Positions 26,711-36,123 of a stretch of 64,000 nucleotides of DNA are shown here, piece by piece. A program made the translations under genes and the position numbers. Source of the DNA: Methylotenera sp. (GTDB taxonomy: Bacteria > Pseudomonadota > Gammaproteobacteria > Burkholderiales > Methylophilaceae); assembly GCA_005777825.1 (NCBI GenBank), contig SXLB01000073.1, positions 24,658 through 88,657 of the forward strand, given 5' to 3'. Each line of letters begins with the position of its first letter. Positions within the stretch are counted from its first letter, which is position 1. Under the pieces are notes generated by a model. It ran no database searches. It was not told the origin of the DNA and saw nothing but the letters and a program-made list of their open reading frames with translations.

Positions 26711-26787
26711 AGGCGGTTAGCTCAGTTGGTTAGAGCGCTTGGTCGACATCCAAGAGGTCAGCAGTTCGAGTCTGCTACTGCCTACCA
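26711..26787 (+). tRNA. tRNA-Val (anticodon GAC)
   Basis: Cloverleaf: AGGCGGT/ACTGCCT acceptor, D arm GCTC..GAGC, anticodon arm CTTGG-TCGACAT-CCAAG, T arm AGCAG-TTCGAGT-CTGCT, encoded CCA end. Confidence 0.95.
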
Positions 26788-26820
26788 GTAACATGTTTTA
26801 AGTAGTCCTAAGTAGTCCAC

Positions 26821-26846
26821 AAAACCAGCCTAAGTGCTGGTTTTTT
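26821..26846 (+). terminator. Rho-independent terminator downstream of tRNA-Val
   Basis: AAAACCAGC CTAAGT GCTGGTTTTTT. Confidence 0.75.
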
Positions 26847-26908
26847 AATGACTATTTGTCTTGTATCGTCCAAAGAGTTGCTATCACAGCCTAAATAATT
26901 TACAGTAT

Positions 26909-26953
26909 AATTTACGGTATTTTGAAAATACCGTATTTAAAATACCGTAAATT
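26909..26953. promoter_or_regulatory. Inverted-repeat operator or arm-type recombinase sites upstream of int
   Basis: Perfect 15-bp arms AATTTACGGTATTTT (26909-26923) / AAAATACCGTAAATT (26939-26953), with a third copy AAAATACCGTA at 26925-26935. Confidence 0.8.
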
Positions 26954-26973
26954 GTCGATTGTGAGGTTGCCTA

Positions 26974-28194
26974 ATGGCTTTAACCGATATTGCAGTGAAA
27001 AGTAGCAAGCCTAAAGAAAAGGCTTACAAGCTAAGTGATGGCAACGGCTTGTATTTATTTGTCAGTCCAGCAGGTGGTAAATTATGGCGATATGACTATG
27101 CCTTTAATGGCACACGAAAAACGCTTGCGCTTGGTAAATATCCTCTTATGACTTTGTTAGAGGCGCGTGAGGCGCACTTGCAGGCGCGTAAAGGCATAGC
27201 GGCTGGCAGAGACCCTGGCGATTTGAAAAAGCAAACCAAAGCCGATAGCGCAATTAATAATGCCAATACTTTTGAAGTGTGGGCTATTCAATGGCTGGCA
27301 CATTGGCGGGTAGGTAAAAGTCCACGCCATGCCGATATTATTAGCAAACGATTAACGGCTAATGTACTGCCTGTTTTAGGCGCGATGCCAATACTAGATA
27401 TTACAGCGGTTGATATTGCTAATGTAATGCGTGGCATAGCAGGGCGTGGCGCTTTAGATGTTGCTACAAGCGCTTACCAAACCATTAGCCAAATATTCCG
27501 CTATGCGATTGCTAACGATGCAACCGCACGGATTGCCCGCAACCCTGCAACCGATATTAAGCCTAGTGATATTGTTCAATCGCGCCCTGTGGTAAATCAA
27601 GCCCGTGTCGATATTAAAGAGCTACCTGTTTTATTGCGGGCGATTGATACCAGCGAAACAAGAGCGGTGACACGCATTGCCATTAAGTTAATGGCTTTAA
27701 CTTTTGTGCGTACTAGCGAGCTGATAGGCGCAGAATGGCACGAAATAGACTTAGAAGCTAAACAATGGCGCATTACAGCCGAGCGCATGAAAATGAAAAC
27801 ACCGCATATTGTGCCATTGGCACAGCAAGCGGTTGAATTGCTAACAACACTTAAAGACATAACAGGCTGGAGTACGTTTTTATTCCCACACCAGCACGAC
27901 CCTAAAAAAACCATGAGTAACAATACCATTTTGCAAGCCCTTAAGCGCATGGGCTATCAAGGCAAAATGACTGGCCACGGCTTTAGGGGTATTGCCAGCA
28001 CGGGGTTGCATGAGCAAGGTTACGCGCATGAACATATCGAGCTACAGCTTGCCCATGCGCCCCGCAATGCAGTAAGTGCGGCTTACAATCATGCGCTATA
28101 TTTACATCCACGCACGGTGATGATGCAGCAATGGGCGGATTATTTAGATGAACTCAAAGCCGGTGCAAAAATAATAGAATTTAAAAAGGCGTAA
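26974..28194 (+). CDS. Tyrosine recombinase/integrase, P4-type with N-terminal Arm-DNA-binding (DUF4102) domain
   Basis: ALTDIAVKSSKPKEKAYKLSDGNGLYLFVSPAGGKLWRYDY; catalytic VRTSELIGAEW, HGFRGIASTGLHEQG, HAPRNAVSAAYNHALY. Confidence 0.95.
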   Translation: MALTDIAVKSSKPKEKAYKLSDGNGLYLFVSPAGGKLWRYDYAFNGTRKTLALGKYPLMTLLEAREAHLQARKGIAAGRDPGDLKKQTKADSAINNANTFEVWAIQWLAHWRVGKSPRHADIISKRLTANVLPVLGAMPILDITAVDIANVMRGIAGRGALDVATSAYQTISQIFRYAIANDATARIARNPATDIKPSDIVQSRPVVNQARVDIKELPVLLRAIDTSETRAVTRIAIKLMALTFVRTSELIGAEWHEIDLEAKQWRITAERMKMKTPHIVPLAQQAVELLTTLKDITGWSTFLFPHQHDPKKTMSNNTILQALKRMGYQGKMTGHGFRGIASTGLHEQGYAHEHIELQLAHAPRNAVSAAYNHALYLHPRTVMMQQWADYLDELKAGAKIIEFKKA

Positions 28195-28343
28195 GGGTAA
28201 AAGCTTGGGCAATTGAACTGAAGCCTTATTTAGTACAAATAATGTAGTAAACCTTAAAATTGAAGGCACCGTGTTAATAATGGTAAGATAGCAAAAAATT
28301 TTTGTAAAAAAACAATAGGCGTGAAAACCCCAAGCAAACTATT

Positions 28344-28363
28344 ACAGCACAGCACAGCACAGC
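28344..28363 (+). repeat. Pentanucleotide tandem repeat (ACAGC)x4 immediately upstream of a surface-protein start codon
   Basis: ACAGC ACAGC ACAGC ACAGC GCGCCT ATG. Confidence 0.9.
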
Positions 28364-28369
28364 GCGCCT

Positions 28370-31300
28370 ATGCCTAAGTTCAATAAGCCCATCCTTGCCG
28401 GCTTATTGGCCTTGCTTCTTTTCTCGCTTCCCTTTGGATTTGCCCAAAGCGCCGATGAAATCAGCCTGCCCGATTTAGGCGAACCTGCGCTTAACAGTGC
28501 CTCCGTGCAACCCAACATCAGTGCCCAAGGCGCAGGTTTTACTTACCATGACAGCAGCAATGGCAAACGTATCACCCTTACCCCGCAATACACTACCGAT
28601 AACGGCACGACCATAGGCGGCAGCTTCGCCGGTCCGCTGGCTAAAAGTATGGCGGTGGGGGTATTGCTGTCTGTTGGTTCGGATAAGAACGAATGGTTAC
28701 TCAACACTGGCTTTGATTTAAGTAGCAATCAACGCTTTATCTTCTCGGTGGGGCAGTTACGGCAAAAACAAAACTTTAACTTTAATTCTTCAGACACCCA
28801 AAAAACCCAAATCAGACAAAACAATGTTGCTGCCAGTTACCAATACTATTTAGCTAAGAACTGGCTTAATGCCGCTGAGGTGGATGCGTATATCAGCAAC
28901 ACCAACAGCGTCAATTTAAGCGATAAAACCTACTTCACCGATACCACGTCTTTGTATGAACTGTGGAGTGACCCACGTCGTATTGCTGGGGGCCGTGTCA
29001 GTGGCGTGCAAGGTCGCTTGGTATTTACCCCAACGGCCCAATCCAACCTTAAGCTAGGCTTCGGTGGCGAGCGCCTGGAGTATGACTTATTAAGCGGTAA
29101 CGACCGTGCCACCCGTGCCACCGGCAGCGCCGAATTCAATCAACGCCTGGACCAAGGTTTTAACTTCCGCGCATCCGTCAATGCCGGTGCTGCGCAAAAT
29201 CGGTATGCCTTAGGCCTAGCTAAAAGCTTTAAAGACGCCCAACTGGGTATTGATGTGGCGACCATTCAAGGTCGTAACAACACCTTTAATGACCAACAAG
29301 TGATGCTCAGTTACACCCAAAGCTTTGGTAGCAATGCCAGCACACCACTGAACCTAACATCTAACACCGACCAAAACCTCAACCAAACCCCCAACCAAAC
29401 CCCCAACCCTGTAGACGCAGCAGGCGCACCGATTCATTCGCCCGCTATGAATACAACAGCGACTGACGACACTGCCACGCCTTGGGCCAGCTCTTTGGTT
29501 GACCAAGTGGCGCGCCGCCCCAGTTTCTTGCCTGCCCAAGCAGTGGCTAAAGTTGATATGACGACCACCCCAACACGGCTCATTGCCATTGATAAGATGG
29601 CAGTGCCCGTGGGTAGCAGCATCAACACGGTCACGGGTAATTTAATTGCACCCACTGGTACTACTGTATCCGTGATTGCGGGCATCACCAAGAATGGTGC
29701 TGCCTTTACCAATGGGGGCCAATTTGCCTTATCCGATAGCACCAATCTTGTCATTAATCCTAAGCTCATTGCGCACCCGGCCGTGGGCATTACGGACACT
29801 TACATCGTCACTATGGGCAACAGTTCCGGTGGCGGCACTACCTTAGCCACCATTACGGTGGTTCATGGCTCAACACACATCATCAGCGTGGTCATGAGCC
29901 ATCGGCTTGCTCAAACAATCAGCTTCGCTACTTTATCTGCCAAGGTCATTACCGATGCTACTTTTAATCTAAGCGCTACGGCCAGTTCAGGGTTAGCGGT
30001 AAGCTTTACTTCTAACAGTAGCTCGGTTTGTACGCTATCAGGGAATACCGTGATTTTAGTGGCCATCGGCACTTGCTCCATTACCGCCAGTCAAGCGGGC
30101 AATGCGGAGTACAGTGCGGCCGCCAGTGTGACGCAAACCTTTAGCGTGAATGTTATGCCTACCTTAACTGGTTTTGCTTTAAGTTCATCCAGCGTGATGT
30201 TGGGCGCAACCGCCCCTACTATTACCGCACCGACTTCCGCTAGCAGTGGAGCGATTACCTACACCAGTAGCAATCCTGCTGTCGCAACCATCAGCGGTAG
30301 CATTATTACCATCGTGGGGGTGGGCACCACCACGTTTACTGCCACCCAAGCGGCTAACGGCAATTATGCCAGCGCTACCGCTACCGCAAGCTTGACGGTA
30401 ACCGCTGTACCCATTGAAGCGCCCGTAGCTCCGCCGGTTCTTCCAACGCAACCGACACCCACCTTTAGCCCAGTAGCGGGTCCCATTGCCTTTGGTAGCA
30501 CGGTGACCATTGCATCAGCCAACGCGGATGCGATTTACTACACCACTAATGGTGCAGATCCAACGATTGCATCCACCAACCAAGCCACCACGGCGTTAGT
30601 GATTAATGCCGGTGTGACCGTTAAAGCCCTGGCTGTGCGTGCGGGTTACCCTAACAGTGCTATTGGCACGGCGACCTATACGCAAGCGATGGCCACGGCA
30701 CCTGCCGTCATCACCTTAGCAGTGGGCGACGCGCAGCCTGTGGGCGGGGTGACCAATGTGACCATACCAATTGCCGGTGACACGGATAGCACCGGTGCCG
30801 TTACCGGTTGGGTGACGACCACGGCTGATAAGATTAAATTTACGGTCACTGCGGGTGCAGCAGGCACGTCTACCATCACCATCAACGGCGGGGCTTACAC
30901 CAGTGGTGCGGCTTACACCATTGGTGCAGTCGGTACACTTACCATTGTTGTGACCACGACGGAAGCGGGTAAAACCAATGCGGTGCGTACCTTTAGTGTG
31001 GGTGTGACGGGTGATTACATCATACATGGCGGACTCACTTGGGCGCCTATAAATACAACAGTAGCAAATTGGTCTGCCGCTTCATCAACTTGTAGCAGTT
31101 TAAGCAATGCGGTTTTTGCCTCTGGTTGGCGTCAAGCAACTGTTACGGAACTTTTAGCACTACGTAACGATAGCCTTGTTGTTGGCACGCCAGTTTACCC
31201 AGCTGGCTGGGGCGTTCTTAATGGCATCCCAAATGCTGGCTTCTCGACTGCCGGTGTATGGACGTCTACGGTATCTGCTGCGCCATACGCTAATGGTAAT

Positions 31301-31396
31301 TGGCACGACTATGTTGCTCTGAATCTGGCTGCTGGTGGCACTGGCCCCGCTGTAAACAGTATCGCCAATGCCTATACGGCGTGTGTTCACCCATAG
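28370..31396 (+). CDS. Large modular exported protein: signal peptide, N-terminal beta-strand-rich (barrel-like) region, Ig-like repeats, CHB_HEX-like domain, C-terminal DUF1566/Lcl-like domain
   Basis: Signal peptide MPKFNKPILAGLLALLLFSLPFGFAQSA; alternating-residue beta-strand pattern to about residue 320; Pro/Gln/Asn linker; SAKVITDATFNLSATASSGLAVSFTS..CTLSG Ig-like; IAFGSTVTIASANADAIYYTTNGADPT; C-terminal GWRQATVTELLALRND..WTSTV..ACVHP. Confidence 0.7.
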   Translation: MPKFNKPILAGLLALLLFSLPFGFAQSADEISLPDLGEPALNSASVQPNISAQGAGFTYHDSSNGKRITLTPQYTTDNGTTIGGSFAGPLAKSMAVGVLLSVGSDKNEWLLNTGFDLSSNQRFIFSVGQLRQKQNFNFNSSDTQKTQIRQNNVAASYQYYLAKNWLNAAEVDAYISNTNSVNLSDKTYFTDTTSLYELWSDPRRIAGGRVSGVQGRLVFTPTAQSNLKLGFGGERLEYDLLSGNDRATRATGSAEFNQRLDQGFNFRASVNAGAAQNRYALGLAKSFKDAQLGIDVATIQGRNNTFNDQQVMLSYTQSFGSNASTPLNLTSNTDQNLNQTPNQTPNPVDAAGAPIHSPAMNTTATDDTATPWASSLVDQVARRPSFLPAQAVAKVDMTTTPTRLIAIDKMAVPVGSSINTVTGNLIAPTGTTVSVIAGITKNGAAFTNGGQFALSDSTNLVINPKLIAHPAVGITDTYIVTMGNSSGGGTTLATITVVHGSTHIISVVMSHRLAQTISFATLSAKVITDATFNLSATASSGLAVSFTSNSSSVCTLSGNTVILVAIGTCSITASQAGNAEYSAAASVTQTFSVNVMPTLTGFALSSSSVMLGATAPTITAPTSASSGAITYTSSNPAVATISGSIITIVGVGTTTFTATQAANGNYASATATASLTVTAVPIEAPVAPPVLPTQPTPTFSPVAGPIAFGSTVTIASANADAIYYTTNGADPTIASTNQATTALVINAGVTVKALAVRAGYPNSAIGTATYTQAMATAPAVITLAVGDAQPVGGVTNVTIPIAGDTDSTGAVTGWVTTTADKIKFTVTAGAAGTSTITINGGAYTSGAAYTIGAVGTLTIVVTTTEAGKTNAVRTFSVGVTGDYIIHGGLTWAPINTTVANWSAASSTCSSLSNAVFASGWRQATVTELLALRNDSLVVGTPVYPAGWGVLNGIPNAGFSTAGVWTSTVSAAPYANGNWHDYVALNLAAGGTGPAVNSIANAYTACVHP

Positions 31397-31533
31397 TTTT
31401 AACGTGTGAATAAGGCGCTTGCACGCATGAATAACCTGTATTAGCAGATGTGTTCTAAGGGGATGCTCTCGTGTTATTACGGTCTATATTTGAATGTTGA
31501 GCAAGCATTTGGGATGAGGCAACCATTAATTAG

Positions 31534-31629
31534 CTAAAGCCCAGCCAAATCTTGCTGCCCAGCTTTAATTTTCTGCCGCGCTTTCTCAACTTTGATGGCT
31601 TTCTGTGTATTTTCAACCTGAGTTTGCAT
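31534..31629 (-). other. Possible 31-aa ORF or gene remnant in gap between cargo and replication genes
   Basis: Minus strand reads MQTQVENTQKAIKVEKARQKIKAGQQDLAGL*; the frame stays open further upstream without an obvious start. Confidence 0.25.
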
Positions 31630-31747
31630 GGATACAATTCTCGCCTTCTCGGACGTAAGTGATTTTTTTAGCGAGTGATTACTGTGAGTTTGGAAACCAT
31701 GAAAATTGTAAGAGCATTACCGAGATTAGATATTTAACATACGGCGA

Positions 31748-32557
31748 ATGATGGCAATGAGTAAATTGATTAATCTAAAAAAATGGCTAACTATTGAAGA
31801 TGCCTCAAGGCACTTATCATCAATTTTTGATGAACCTGTAAAAAATTACGACATTTACCGATTTGCATTAGATGGTCATTTGAAGCTTTCAGTAAATTTG
31901 GTAAATCATGCTATTGCAAAAAAATGTAGAGTAGCTTCATTAGAAAATGTCCCCAAAATAAAAGCATTAGACGGCGATGATCTAATTCCTCTTGGGATGC
32001 GACTTGATGATGATAATTATTTAGTAAAAGATAAGGACATCATATCTATCAGTGGTGTAATGGATTTAATGATGTTAGGTAATGAGGCGCTGGACATAGA
32101 GCATGAATATCAGCGATTAACTAGCGGGGTAAAGGTTACGCTAGTGTGTCTAGAAGGTGCATATGTCCAAGACCCTAATAATGGTGGCATTTACGAGCTG
32201 CAAGACCATTTCAAAAATGATGTTGAAAGCATGAAGAATAAAAATAACTATTATCCCGCTGCTAGTCTCCCCAATGATGCAGCTTTGGTGCTGAGAACAA
32301 GGGCTATATCAGAATTTATTGAATCTGTAAGTGATATTAAAAAATCAGAAAAACCTCTTATAGAAACTGAGCGCAGCACACTATTAACCATTATTGCAGC
32401 GCTCGCCAAAGAGGCCCATATTGATATTGGGAAAACATCAAAAGCAGGTGAGCTAATCGCCAATATGACACAGCAATTAGGCGCAGCTGTTGGCGCAACC
32501 ACCATTGAAACACATCTAAAGAAAATCCCTCAATCCCTTAAAAACCGCGCTAAATAA
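31748..32557 (+). CDS. Conserved hypothetical protein of the type found in genomic islands
   Basis: KKWLTIEDASRHLSSIF N-terminus and ETERSTLLTIIAALAKEAHIDIGKTSKAGELIANMTQQLGA..TIETHLKKIP C-terminus. Confidence 0.6.
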   Translation: MMAMSKLINLKKWLTIEDASRHLSSIFDEPVKNYDIYRFALDGHLKLSVNLVNHAIAKKCRVASLENVPKIKALDGDDLIPLGMRLDDDNYLVKDKDIISISGVMDLMMLGNEALDIEHEYQRLTSGVKVTLVCLEGAYVQDPNNGGIYELQDHFKNDVESMKNKNNYYPAASLPNDAALVLRTRAISEFIESVSDIKKSEKPLIETERSTLLTIIAALAKEAHIDIGKTSKAGELIANMTQQLGAAVGATTIETHLKKIPQSLKNRAK

Positions 32558-32673
32558 GGGTTGTTTCGCCTGCTGGCTATTTGCCGCCGCCCACGGGCGC
32601 TTAAGAGATGCCATTTTTTATAAACTGCAAAAAAATCAGCATTTCGCTGGTTTATTTAGGAGTTATAGAGAAT

Positions 32674-32880
32674 ATGACAGACATCAAAATGAATCAAAAA
32701 ATCCTGCGCCTCAGCGCTGTAAAAGATTGGACGGGCTTATCCCGCAGCACCATTTACGCGATGATGAAGTCTCACACATTCCCGCAAAACATTCAGATTG
32801 GTATGAGGTCGGTCGGCTGGCTGGAAAGCGACATTCAAGCGTGGATTGATTCCCGTATCACTGCATCTAAAGCAGCATAG
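32674..32880 (+). CDS. AlpA-family transcriptional regulator/excisionase-like protein
   Basis: ILRLSAVKDWTGLSRSTIYAMMKSHTFPQNIQIGMRSVGWLESDIQAWIDSRI; start at 32674 preferred (RBS upstream). Confidence 0.88.
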   Translation: MTDIKMNQKILRLSAVKDWTGLSRSTIYAMMKSHTFPQNIQIGMRSVGWLESDIQAWIDSRITASKAA

Positions 32881-32890
32881 GGAGTTTAAT

Positions 32891-33190
32891 ATGATTAACG
32901 CGAAACCCAGATACGCGGGTAAGTTCTCACGCAAAGCCTTGCCTGACGCAATTCAATATTACGAAACTCAAAACATCAAACTTAAAGGTGGCGGCGCATG
33001 GCGTGATGCTATCTGCCCATTTCATAAAGACACCAAGCCTAGCCTGCGCATCAATGTAGAAAAAGGCGCATATCGCTGTATGGTTTGCGGCGCACATGGT
33101 TGTGATGTGCTGGCTTTTCACATGCACAAACACGGGCTTAACTTTGTGGAAGCGTGCAAGCAGTTAGGCGCATGGGTGGTGCAATCATGA
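32891..33190 (+). CDS. CHC2 zinc-finger (DnaG-type) domain protein
   Basis: CPFHKDTKPSLRINVEKGAYRCMVCGAHGCDVLAFHMHKHGLNFVEACKQL; ATG at 32891 with GGAG upstream. Confidence 0.85.
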   Translation: MINAKPRYAGKFSRKALPDAIQYYETQNIKLKGGGAWRDAICPFHKDTKPSLRINVEKGAYRCMVCGAHGCDVLAFHMHKHGLNFVEACKQLGAWVVQS

Positions 33191-34936
33191 CAACTAGCGA
33201 AAAGTATATTTACGTAGATACCGATAACAAGCCATTATTTACTAAAGAGCGCTATGTAAAAAAAGACGGCAGTAAAGGCTATGCTTATAGCCATGTAATG
33301 GATGGTGAAACAATTAACACCATGCCACAGTTTGCCAGTGGCACGCCGCTTTATAATTTACACAGACTAGCCAAATACCCCACTGCCACCGTGTATTTAG
33401 TCGAAGGTGAAAAGTGCGTAGATGCGCTCACTAAACTAAAGCTACTGGCAACCACCAGCGGCGGCGCACAAAGTGATGATAAAGCAGACTGGCAACCACT
33501 AGCAGGGCGTGAAGTCATTGCGTGGGCAGATAATGACGATGCAGGCATAGGTTATATGCAGCGTGCAACAAAAAAGCTAACTGTGCTTAATGCCACAGTT
33601 AAGCATATTGATATTGCGCAGCTTAATCTAGCGGTAAAGGGTGATTGTGTGGACTGGTTGCAGCAATTCGACCAGTTTAATGGACGCAATGCTATACCGT
33701 ATGACATTGAGGCTTTGCCGCTTAAACCTGACGGCATACAAAGCCCTGCAAGCGATTTAAATGACAGGCTTGATACCAACCAATTGGCTATAAATATCAG
33801 TTTACGTTGTGCCGCAGACATTACCCCAGAGCCTATACATTGGTTATGGGATGGTTGGTTAGCAAAAGGTAAGTTACACATATTTGCTGGCATGGCTGGA
33901 ACAGGTAAAACAACCATAGCCATAGCACTAGCTTCAACAATCACGACTGGCGGTAGATTCCCTGATGGCAGTCAATCGCCTATTGGCAGTGTTTTAATTT
34001 GGTCAGGTGAAGACAGCCCAGCAGACACACTTGTACCTAGGTTAATGGCGGCAGGTGCAGATTTAAGCAAGGTGCATTTTGTTGGCGATATAACCGCCGA
34101 TTATGAATTGCGAAGTTTTGACCCTGCAACGGACATGCCATCATTGATGATTAAGGCAGCATCAATACCTGACCTGTCCTTGTTAATTATTGACCCGATT
34201 GTGAATGCCGTTGCTGGTGACAGTCATAAAAATGGTGAAGTAAGAAGGGCTTTGCAACCCGTTGTTGATTTCGGTGAAAAACTCAATTGTGCTGTATTGG
34301 GTATCACGCACTTTAGTAAAGGCGGGCAAGGTAAAGACCCATTAGAGCGGGTAACGGGTAGCCTTGCCTTCGGTGCGCTGGCACGCATTGTTTTAGCCAC
34401 CGCCAAAATAGTGGATGGGGATAGTGCCAAGCGTATTGTATGTCGTGCTAAAAGCAACATTGGGGTTGATACGGGCGGCTCAACAACAAGATGTAGGCAA
34501 TGGGATATTCTCAAGTTATGCCTTGTGGGGTGATTCGGTTGATGGAAGCGCTAGGGAATTATTGGCTGAACCTGATAACCGTGAAACGGGTGAAAACGGC
34601 AATAGTGCGCTAGATGAGGCCAAGGACTTTTTGCAAGAATTGTTAGCCGATGGTGAAATGGCACAAAAAGAAATTGAAGTTGAAGCCAAAGGCGCAGGGT
34701 TAGCGATGCGCACTATCCAAAGAGCTAAAAAAGAACTGAACATTCATTCAAGTAAAAGCCTATTAGATAAACGCTGGTATTGGAAATTAACCATCAACAT
34801 CGCCAAAGATGACCAACATTGCCAACATCGCCATATAAATTATGTGGCAACCTTGGCGACCTTACATGAAATTAAGCATATTTCACAAGAAAATAGCCTA
34901 ATCAGCAGTAGCGTTGATGAATCCATGAGGTTTTAA
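33187..34936 (+). pseudogene. Toprim-like + RepA-type AAA ATPase (primase/helicase), apparently frameshifted near 34470-34490
   Basis: Toprim-like VYLVEGEKCVDAL..VIAWADNDDAG; Walker A GMAGTGKTTIA; IWSGEDSPADTLVPRL. Frame ends at 34533 in non-family sequence, while the +1 frame continues with GNGIFSSYALWGDSVDGSARELLAEPDN..SALDEAKDFLQELLADGEMAQKEIEVEAKGAGLAMRTIQRAKKELN, typical of this family's C-terminus. Confidence 0.7.
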
Positions 34937-34938
34937 CC

Positions 34939-35169
34939 ATGACCACACCACAAACAGCAAATGAACTATTGGATGCTATGCGCGGTTGTGGGTTTACCAT
35001 CAACCTCAGTGGCGATTCGCTAGAGGTAAGGTGGGCGCGATGGGTTGATGACGAACTGGCAGAGTTAATCAAAACGCATAAAACAGGCTTAATCAAATTA
35101 TTAGAAAGTGAGGTAAAAAATGACGAGCAAAAAGAAAACACCACTAGCAAAACAAGACAAGCAATCTGA
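34939..35169 (+). CDS. Small hypothetical protein resembling TubC N-terminal docking-like domains
   Basis: TANELLDAMRGCGFTINLSGDSLEVRWARWVDDELAELIKTHKTGLIKLLESE; correct operon spacing. Confidence 0.45.
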   Translation: MTTPQTANELLDAMRGCGFTINLSGDSLEVRWARWVDDELAELIKTHKTGLIKLLESEVKNDEQKENTTSKTRQAI

Positions 35170-35719
35170 AAGCGAGAAATATGCAAAAGTGAGTTTGTCA
35201 GCTTCATACATGGGTGCGATATTAACGGACAGCTTCACCAGCGCCATATTACCAAAAGCTGAATTAGCCGATGTAGCTAGTGAGTTAAGTGAAAAAATAA
35301 AGACTATTCAAGCGGGTGATATGCAACCGATTGAAGCCATTCTGATTAGCCAAGCCCAAACACTGCAAACAATGTTTGTGACCTTAGGGCGCATGGCAGC
35401 AAGTAAAACGGGCTTGCAACAATATACCGCGTTTATGAATATGGCACTTAAAGCCCAAAGCCAAAGCCGTGCAACCATTCAAGCATTAACCGAGCTTAAA
35501 TATCCGAAACGGGCAACCTTTGTAAGACAAGCGAATATTTCACATGGGCATCAACAAGTGAATAACGGGACTAGTACGCAAGCACCCGCGCACGCGAAAG
35601 CAATTGAAAATCAACCAAACGAACTATTAGAGGCTAATCATGGCGGCAAGAAAATGGACAGAAGATCAGCGCAAACAGCAATCACAAAAGATAAGGCAAT
35701 GGCAACCGTGGCAACATAG
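35120..35719 (+). CDS. Hypothetical element protein
   Basis: 199-aa ORF with C-terminal FVRQANISHGHQQVNNGTS; same strand as the element genes. Confidence 0.55.
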   Translation: MTSKKKTPLAKQDKQSESEKYAKVSLSASYMGAILTDSFTSAILPKAELADVASELSEKIKTIQAGDMQPIEAILISQAQTLQTMFVTLGRMAASKTGLQQYTAFMNMALKAQSQSRATIQALTELKYPKRATFVRQANISHGHQQVNNGTSTQAPAHAKAIENQPNELLEANHGGKKMDRRSAQTAITKDKAMATVAT

Positions 35720-35852
35720 CACAGGGGCTAAAACTATTGCAGGTAAGGCAATAGCTTCACGCAATGCTTTTAAAGGTGGATTTAGGCAACAATTAAAAGA
35801 GCTTAGGCAATTGCTGCGTGACCAGCGCGGTGCGCTTAATGAAATAGGATAA
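35640..35852 (+). CDS. Small basic hypothetical element protein
   Basis: RKWTEDQRKQQSQKIRQWQPWQHSTGAKTIAGKAIASRNAFKGGFRQQLKELR, a pattern recognised from island/phage proteins. Confidence 0.55.
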   Translation: MAARKWTEDQRKQQSQKIRQWQPWQHSTGAKTIAGKAIASRNAFKGGFRQQLKELRQLLRDQRGALNEIG

Positions 35853-36020
35853 CTTGCTTTGTTAGTGGGGTGGCTGGAAAGTCTGTTGCGTTTGCACTAA
35901 CAACCAATGCGAGTGCTTCATTAATTCTAAATCACTAGTTTTTAGATTTTTTAGTCGTGTATAATCCCGCCTCAAGCCGTTAAATGCAATTAATTAAAAA
36001 ATAGTCAAATTTTGTATTTG

Positions 36021-36049
36021 CGGTATTTTTAACGGTATCTGTATTTTTA
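36021..36049. repeat. Right-end repeats CGGTATTTTTA / ACGGTAT / TGTATTTTTA, candidate arm-type integrase sites
   Basis: CGGTATTTT at 36021-36029 is identical to the core of the int-proximal repeats (26915-26923); ACGGTAT again at 36032-36038. Confidence 0.5.
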
Positions 36050-36123
36050 TACAATCATAATTATCAATTAAAACAATTTATTGCATTGTTAATTAGGATT
36101 AGCTACTGACCAGATATGCCAGC

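Follow-up and report, generated by a model that had tools for sequence, protein, structure and literature searches.

The window, a 64-kb stretch of Methylotenera DNA analysed here as a whole, carries at 28370..31396 a gene for a predicted barrel-first surface protein of 1008 aa (from ATG 28370; all features given here lie on the forward strand). Our preferred reading, held with moderate confidence, is that the protein acts as a surface adhesin, subject to phase variation and operating in the manner of an inverse autotransporter, whose gene a small integrase-AlpA-primase element moves between strains. In such a mechanism, the signal peptide would carry the protein across the inner membrane, the 14-strand N-terminal barrel would be inserted in the outer membrane, and the downstream chain would pass through or beside the barrel, so that the Ig-like domains make up the stalk and the tip is a lectin-like domain, closed by a disulfide, which binds a glycan or another surface. 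In several relatives, the number of repeat units near the start would shift during replication, bringing a leader in or out of frame and giving ON and OFF cells, while the small element would transfer the gene between strains. Surface display of the passenger and binding by it are what we infer; the protein family itself is real, well bounded and undescribed, with a plan of known kind and a probably different barrel. As a surface adhesin the family is ordinary; what sets it apart is the barrel, the repeats and the way it is carried.

A sequence-only reading of this DNA had described the 1008-aa open reading frame and most of its domain order, and both are present as described. By inspection, residues 1-28 (28370..28453) form a signal peptide (MPKFNKPILAGLLALLLFSLPFGFAQSA followed by DE). 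The modelled barrel (residues about 66-319, 28565..29326) leads into the expected Pro/Gln/Asn linker, an Asn/Pro/Gln/Thr-rich segment of low confidence (residues 320-371, 29327..29482; pLDDT below 50) that bears a 12-bp tandem repeat at 29370-29408. Next comes a beta domain peculiar to the family, which includes a short helix (SLVDQV...RPSFLPAQ) and spans residues 372-512 (29483..29905), delimited from the family alignment and the model and conserved in every relative extending that far. Ig-like (Big-type) repeats occupy 29906..30472 and differ in number among relatives. They are followed by an Fn3_assoc/CHB_HEX_C_1 domain (residues 702-770, 30473..30679), the previously noticed CHB_HEX-like segment, which exceeds the Pfam cut-offs (39.2 bits versus 22 for PF13290 and 39.8 versus 23 for PF13287). 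The protein ends in an Lcl_C/DUF1566-type domain with conserved Cys908 and Cys1005 (residues 887-1008, 31028..31393). NCBIfam and PHROGs gave no match for the gene product. Complete relatives share the same plan of signal peptide, barrel, linker, family-specific domain, variable Ig/Fn3-like repeats and C-terminal Lcl_C domain; the signature of their family-specific domain is RPSFLPAQ...GQFAL...GGGTTLATV and their Lcl_C domain terminates in CV[HR].

The barrel-like character first noticed at the N-terminus is confirmed by structure prediction. AlphaFold2 run on the family alignment (13 sequences) returned an all-beta structure (pLDDT 69, pTM 0.63), and the barrel region alone, modelled from these 13 sequences only, was predicted with 14 strands (pLDDT 74, pTM 0.72). 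Its last strand, QVMLSYTQSF, has the terminal Phe expected for a barrel-ending signal. Foldseek matched the barrel model to OmpG, FadL, TodX and CymD with E-values down to 6e-9 (OmpG TM 0.62-0.65 by target length; FadL family E about 1e-8). Classical autotransporter barrels ranked below OmpG and the FadL-type channels, and intimin and invasin were absent from the 50 best fold matches. Even at an E-value limit of 10, no Pfam family covered the barrel; a search of PDB sequences with the full profile returned nothing, and a separate search gave only an irrelevant match (E 0.81). The most conserved stretch of the family, YELWxDPRRxAGG (28862-29020, residues about 165-217), lies outside any strand in a predicted loop between strands 7 and 8, which may fold into the pore.

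Inverse autotransporters (type Ve) have an N-terminal barrel, an Ig-like stalk and a lectin-like tip placed last (PMC6555100). The window protein resembles intimin, invasin and YeeJ in having its barrel N-terminal to the passenger, an Ig-like stalk and a lectin-like tip, but its barrel lacks detectable sequence kinship with theirs, and the model gives it 14 strands where theirs have 12; moreover, the family has a domain of its own after the linker, and no LysM-type periplasmic domain was found in it. Thus, of the suggested resemblance to inverse autotransporters, the barrel-first, passenger-last order stands, whereas membership among the intimin/invasin/Zir proteins does not. Because the barrel has no sequence match in Pfam or the PDB and its model has 14 rather than 12 strands, we call the protein inverse-autotransporter-like, and, as modelled, not a type Ve member.

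The even strand number puts both barrel ends in the periplasm, and the passenger would therefore either leave via the pore, like that of intimin, or fail to be exported. This topology counts against our preferred reading, as the passenger could remain in the periplasm, and it favours an OmpA-like anchor, in which the barrel is embedded in the outer membrane while the rest is periplasmic, with the Ig-like and Lcl-type domains binding cell-wall or periplasmic sugars: barrel-first order together with an even strand number places the C-terminal side of the barrel there by default. We nevertheless consider such an anchor unlikely, given that Pfam detected no peptidoglycan-binding family in the window protein or its relatives and given the properties of stalk, tip and start region described below. 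The nearest solved folds, OmpG and the FadL/TodX/CymD channels, suggest another arrangement, an open channel whose C-terminal domains capture a polymer or sugar for the pore, so that the protein would serve uptake and not adhesion. The conserved loop between strands 7 and 8 could line or gate such a pore, and CHB_HEX-type domains are known in carbohydrate enzymes. However, the window barrel shares the 14-strand fold of OmpG and FadL, its best structural matches, at only 8-12% identity, a general barrel likeness that says nothing of function, and those channels carry no comparable passenger. Long Ig stalks with a variable number of repeats are typical of adhesins, and no transport or sugar-use genes adjoin the barrel gene within the element (Pfam, PHROGs). 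We regard an uptake function as improbable.

The Ig-like segments recognized in the sequence-only reading do form a stalk ahead of a lectin-like tip, as judged from Pfam, relatives and alignment. Across relatives, the stalk varies from about one to six domains while both protein ends are conserved, a wider range than expected of a tether spanning a periplasm of constant depth, which argues against the OmpA-like anchor. The passengers of relatives also gave a weak InvE_AD match. The proposal that the C-terminus is an Lcl/DUF1566 domain draws its support from the relatives and not from the window copy itself, which alone has no Pfam match to Lcl/DUF1566. Five relatives matched PF07603 (Lcl_C), with E-values between 1e-8 and 1e-9; against a curated cut-off of 34.9 bits, L049 scored 35.6 and L045 37.8, while the window copy falls below detection. 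It aligns with the Lcl_C relatives at 29-37% identity and shares with them GGLTW, WR..T..EL..L, GW and two cysteines. These cysteines, Cys908 and Cys1005, are kept in all nine sequences of the C-terminal alignment and could close the tip domain. From this alignment, and not from the Pfam profile alone, the window tip is recognized as a diverged Lcl_C/DUF1566 member. Lcl is a DUF1566 protein whose C-terminal domain binds sulphated glycosaminoglycans; the fold of that domain is C-type-lectin-like and resembles the invasin and intimin tips (PMC11162425). The DUF1566 domain of Lcl acts extracellularly (PMC11162425), which again disfavours a periplasmic anchor. Legionella Lcl likewise carries its C-terminal DUF1566/PF07603 tip on a repetitive stalk, but that stalk is collagen-like and Lcl has no barrel and no disulfides, in contrast to the two conserved tip cysteines of the window family.

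The present analysis adds a feature that is new for the family: simple repeats between the start codon and the barrel. Such a repeat was found in 5/13 loci, the tracts being (AACCG)18, (AACCG)13, (GCCAA)7, C11 and, in the window, (ACAGC)4. The two AACCG tracts occur in two Gallionella metagenome-assembled genomes (MAGs; L044 and L045), where each immediately follows a short leader peptide (MARLLQ or MAHLLR); (GCCAA)7 of G069 is positioned in the same way. In L043, the C11 tract, of a type prone to sequencing error, lies between an out-of-frame signal-peptide open reading frame and the barrel, and no other long run of C occurs in 17 kb. In three relatives (L044, L045 and L043), the leader start and the barrel are thus in different reading frames. 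We searched nine genomes for AACCG x4 and for GCCAA (reversed-pentamer control); because match counts equal those expected from single tracts, the AACCG and GCCAA tracts are unique to the barrel gene in their own genomes. Separately, the Gallionella contig of L045 contains a (CTAACGG)4 at L045:13847, possibly marking another variable gene.

The window tract, (ACAGC)4 at 28344..28363, which the sequence-only reading had overlooked, is the only pentamer run of at least four copies in the 64 kb, and a run of this type occurred in none of 200 Markov-simulated 64-kb sequences (12.8 Mb). The true start codon of the barrel gene may lie upstream of it: a possible leader starting at GTG 28321 (28321..28369, VKTPSKLLQ...) resembles the Gallionella MARLLQ and MAHLLR leaders and, with four ACAGC copies, does not read in the barrel's frame, whereas two, five or eight copies would place it in frame. 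Because ATG 28370 is downstream of the tract, the window copy may also be made regardless of the repeat, and this arrangement suggests that it may be constitutively made or fixed.

In Neisseria, the Opa leader contains CTCTT pentanucleotide repeats, and the number of units sets the reading frame (PMC3960869). A short repeat between the start and the mature protein, with unit number setting frame, is found in L044, L045 and L043, the four-copy window tract being a weaker instance; as read from the DNA, the barrel-gene repeats have the layout of Opa-type phase variation. The likeness to Opa is that an outer-membrane barrel protein has, in its leader region, a pentanucleotide repeat that sets the frame (PMC3960869), but the Opa barrel is unrelated and lacks a large passenger, and the window family, known from sequence alone, has several different repeat units at the equivalent place. 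Phase variation predicts just such selection for repeats at an equivalent site across lineages, with the unit differing from one to another. We infer actual ON/OFF switching, less firmly for the window copy than for its relatives; that the window repeat has just four copies with an ATG after it, and that 8/13 loci have no repeat, weighs against the preferred reading, as do the base of the barrel model (13 sequences, pLDDT 74) and the draft metagenome origin of every sequence. Start-proximal repeats are also typical of surface-exposed proteins, which further argues against the OmpA-like anchor.

The barrel gene lies within an element of 9,325 bp (26789-36113) inserted at a tRNA-Val (gac) gene (26711..26787, ARAGORN) and missing from close relatives. 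In two congeners, G064 and G062, whose thrS is 93-94% identical to that of the window, the thrS flank directly follows the tRNA with the junction CTACCAG/ATATGCC (empty sites L052/L054). The halves of this junction are split in the window, at 26788 and 36114, which sets the element ends at 26789 and 36113 and places the barrel gene inside. The left end has the core ACCAG at the tRNA 3' end (26784..26788), and the right end (36109..36113) reads GCTACTG-ACCAG followed by the empty-site flank ATATGCCAGCAAAAGCC. A repeat search of the window did not pick up these att sites, the repeat being short and imperfect, and the ends were settled by the empty site. The window comes from a draft assembly of 1.36 Mb with 83% completeness.

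Within the element, the barrel gene is placed between a tyrosine integrase (26974..28194; Arm-DNA-bind_3, Phage_int_M and Phage_integrase by Pfam; PHROG 1) and a block encoding a 269-aa protein of unknown function present in other genus members (31748..32557), an AlpA-type excisionase/regulator (32608..32880, Pfam), a CHC2 zinc-finger primase fragment (32846..33190, Pfam), for which an internal ATG near 32891 is probably the true start, and a Toprim/AAA_25 primase-helicase (33154..34533; Pfam, PHROGs). The Toprim/AAA_25 frame is shorter than in relatives, and a frameshift was considered; no sign of one was seen, and only the first ~225 residues are common to the G006 protein. In G006 (C12, L115:6482-12011), a related integrase-AlpA-CHC2-Toprim backbone occurs at a tRNA-Leu (integrase 33%, CHC2 85% and Toprim part 52% identical to the window's). 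Because this related backbone lacks the barrel gene, the gene is cargo. The two backbones also present the cargo position of the element family as exchangeable. A second integrase-linked family copy is found in G019 (C60, L024:8617-14574), on a contig that stops within the barrel-family gene; its integrase differs (24% identical) and a large primase-like protein adjoins.

The tRNA site, tyrosine integrase, AlpA and primase-helicase are shared with P4-like satellites and AlpA-primase integrative elements; unlike P4-like satellites, the window element has no recognized gene for packaging, capsid sizing or helper dependence. The satellite-like carrier proposed in the sequence-only reading is therefore upheld as carriage on an integrase element, by the empty site in relatives, but not as a satellite proper: Pfam and PHROGs revealed no gene or site for the use of helper-phage particles. 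Promoter and terminator scans gave no more signal than shuffled sequences.

The barrel gene family is undescribed, sporadic and betaproteobacterial (Methylophilaceae, Gallionella, Rhodocyclales). Within the genus, besides the window's own genome (G000), the barrel is present at 68-80% identity in G019, G020 and G031, and G069 has a diverged, frameshifted (broken) copy, giving 5/52 carrier genomes, a count that takes in the window's genome and the broken copy. Among 398 further genomes drawn evenly from the order, a narrow profile found no barrel relative. A scan of GTDB species genomes added relatives at 35-47% identity in the two Gallionella MAGs (L044, L045), in Rhodocyclales (L049, L050) and in further MAGs (L043, L046, L048); these distant relatives were reached by an alignment query, and scanning genome contigs with the window protein alone found none. 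All family sequences come from draft metagenome assemblies. Among viral contigs, phage records and plasmids, there was no barrel relative and only generic Ig-like matches, and no description of the barrel family, its repeats or such a protein on an AlpA-primase element was found in open-access papers. Most relatives adjoin ordinary chromosomal genes (rplI, cyanophycin synthetase, fabF, rnf) with no integrase in the DNA read there, so the architecture is not peculiar to an integrase element.

This distribution also bears on whether the protein is a shield made by the element that covers or replaces a phage receptor and so excludes competing phages. That integrase elements carry the gene in both the window and G019 would fit a shield, as would the start-proximal repeats, which occur in phage-receptor genes generally. 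On the other hand, most family members are located away from any integrase, PADLOC reported no defence family, and the family has no relative among phage records or viral contigs, making this role highly unlikely. Receptor blocking or altered phage attachment, as suggested in the sequence-only reading, thus finds no support here.

More tentatively, and with less than even confidence, we propose a separate barrel-first class, defined by a 14-strand barrel unrelated to that of type Ve and by start-proximal repeat switching with changing units, and spread among freshwater betaproteobacteria by small AlpA-primase elements. If true, the intimin-like plan of barrel, stalk and lectin tip would have had several origins, each starting from a different barrel. 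Phase variation of the Opa kind is best known in host-adapted pathogens; it would then also operate in iron-oxidising and methylotrophic bacteria that live free in fresh water, with grazers or phages and not immune systems as the selecting force. A named and testable cargo would also become available for small AlpA-primase elements, most of whose cargo is unknown.

Several observations were made on the margins of the family. G020 has at least three family copies, counted from C-terminal fragments at contig ends (L026:13818-14570, L027:8626-10116, L028:8679-9140), where repeats probably break the assembly. A weak profile match in G721 was discarded as antisense to a TonB-receptor open reading frame. 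Finally, a wider profile applied to 398 genomes of the phylum found one distant relative, in G480 (E 1e-29; C117, L094:4442-8339), a 930-aa barrel protein with a different passenger that is preceded by a possible outer-membrane protein of 363 aa and that takes the barrel-first plan beyond the betaproteobacteria sampled.
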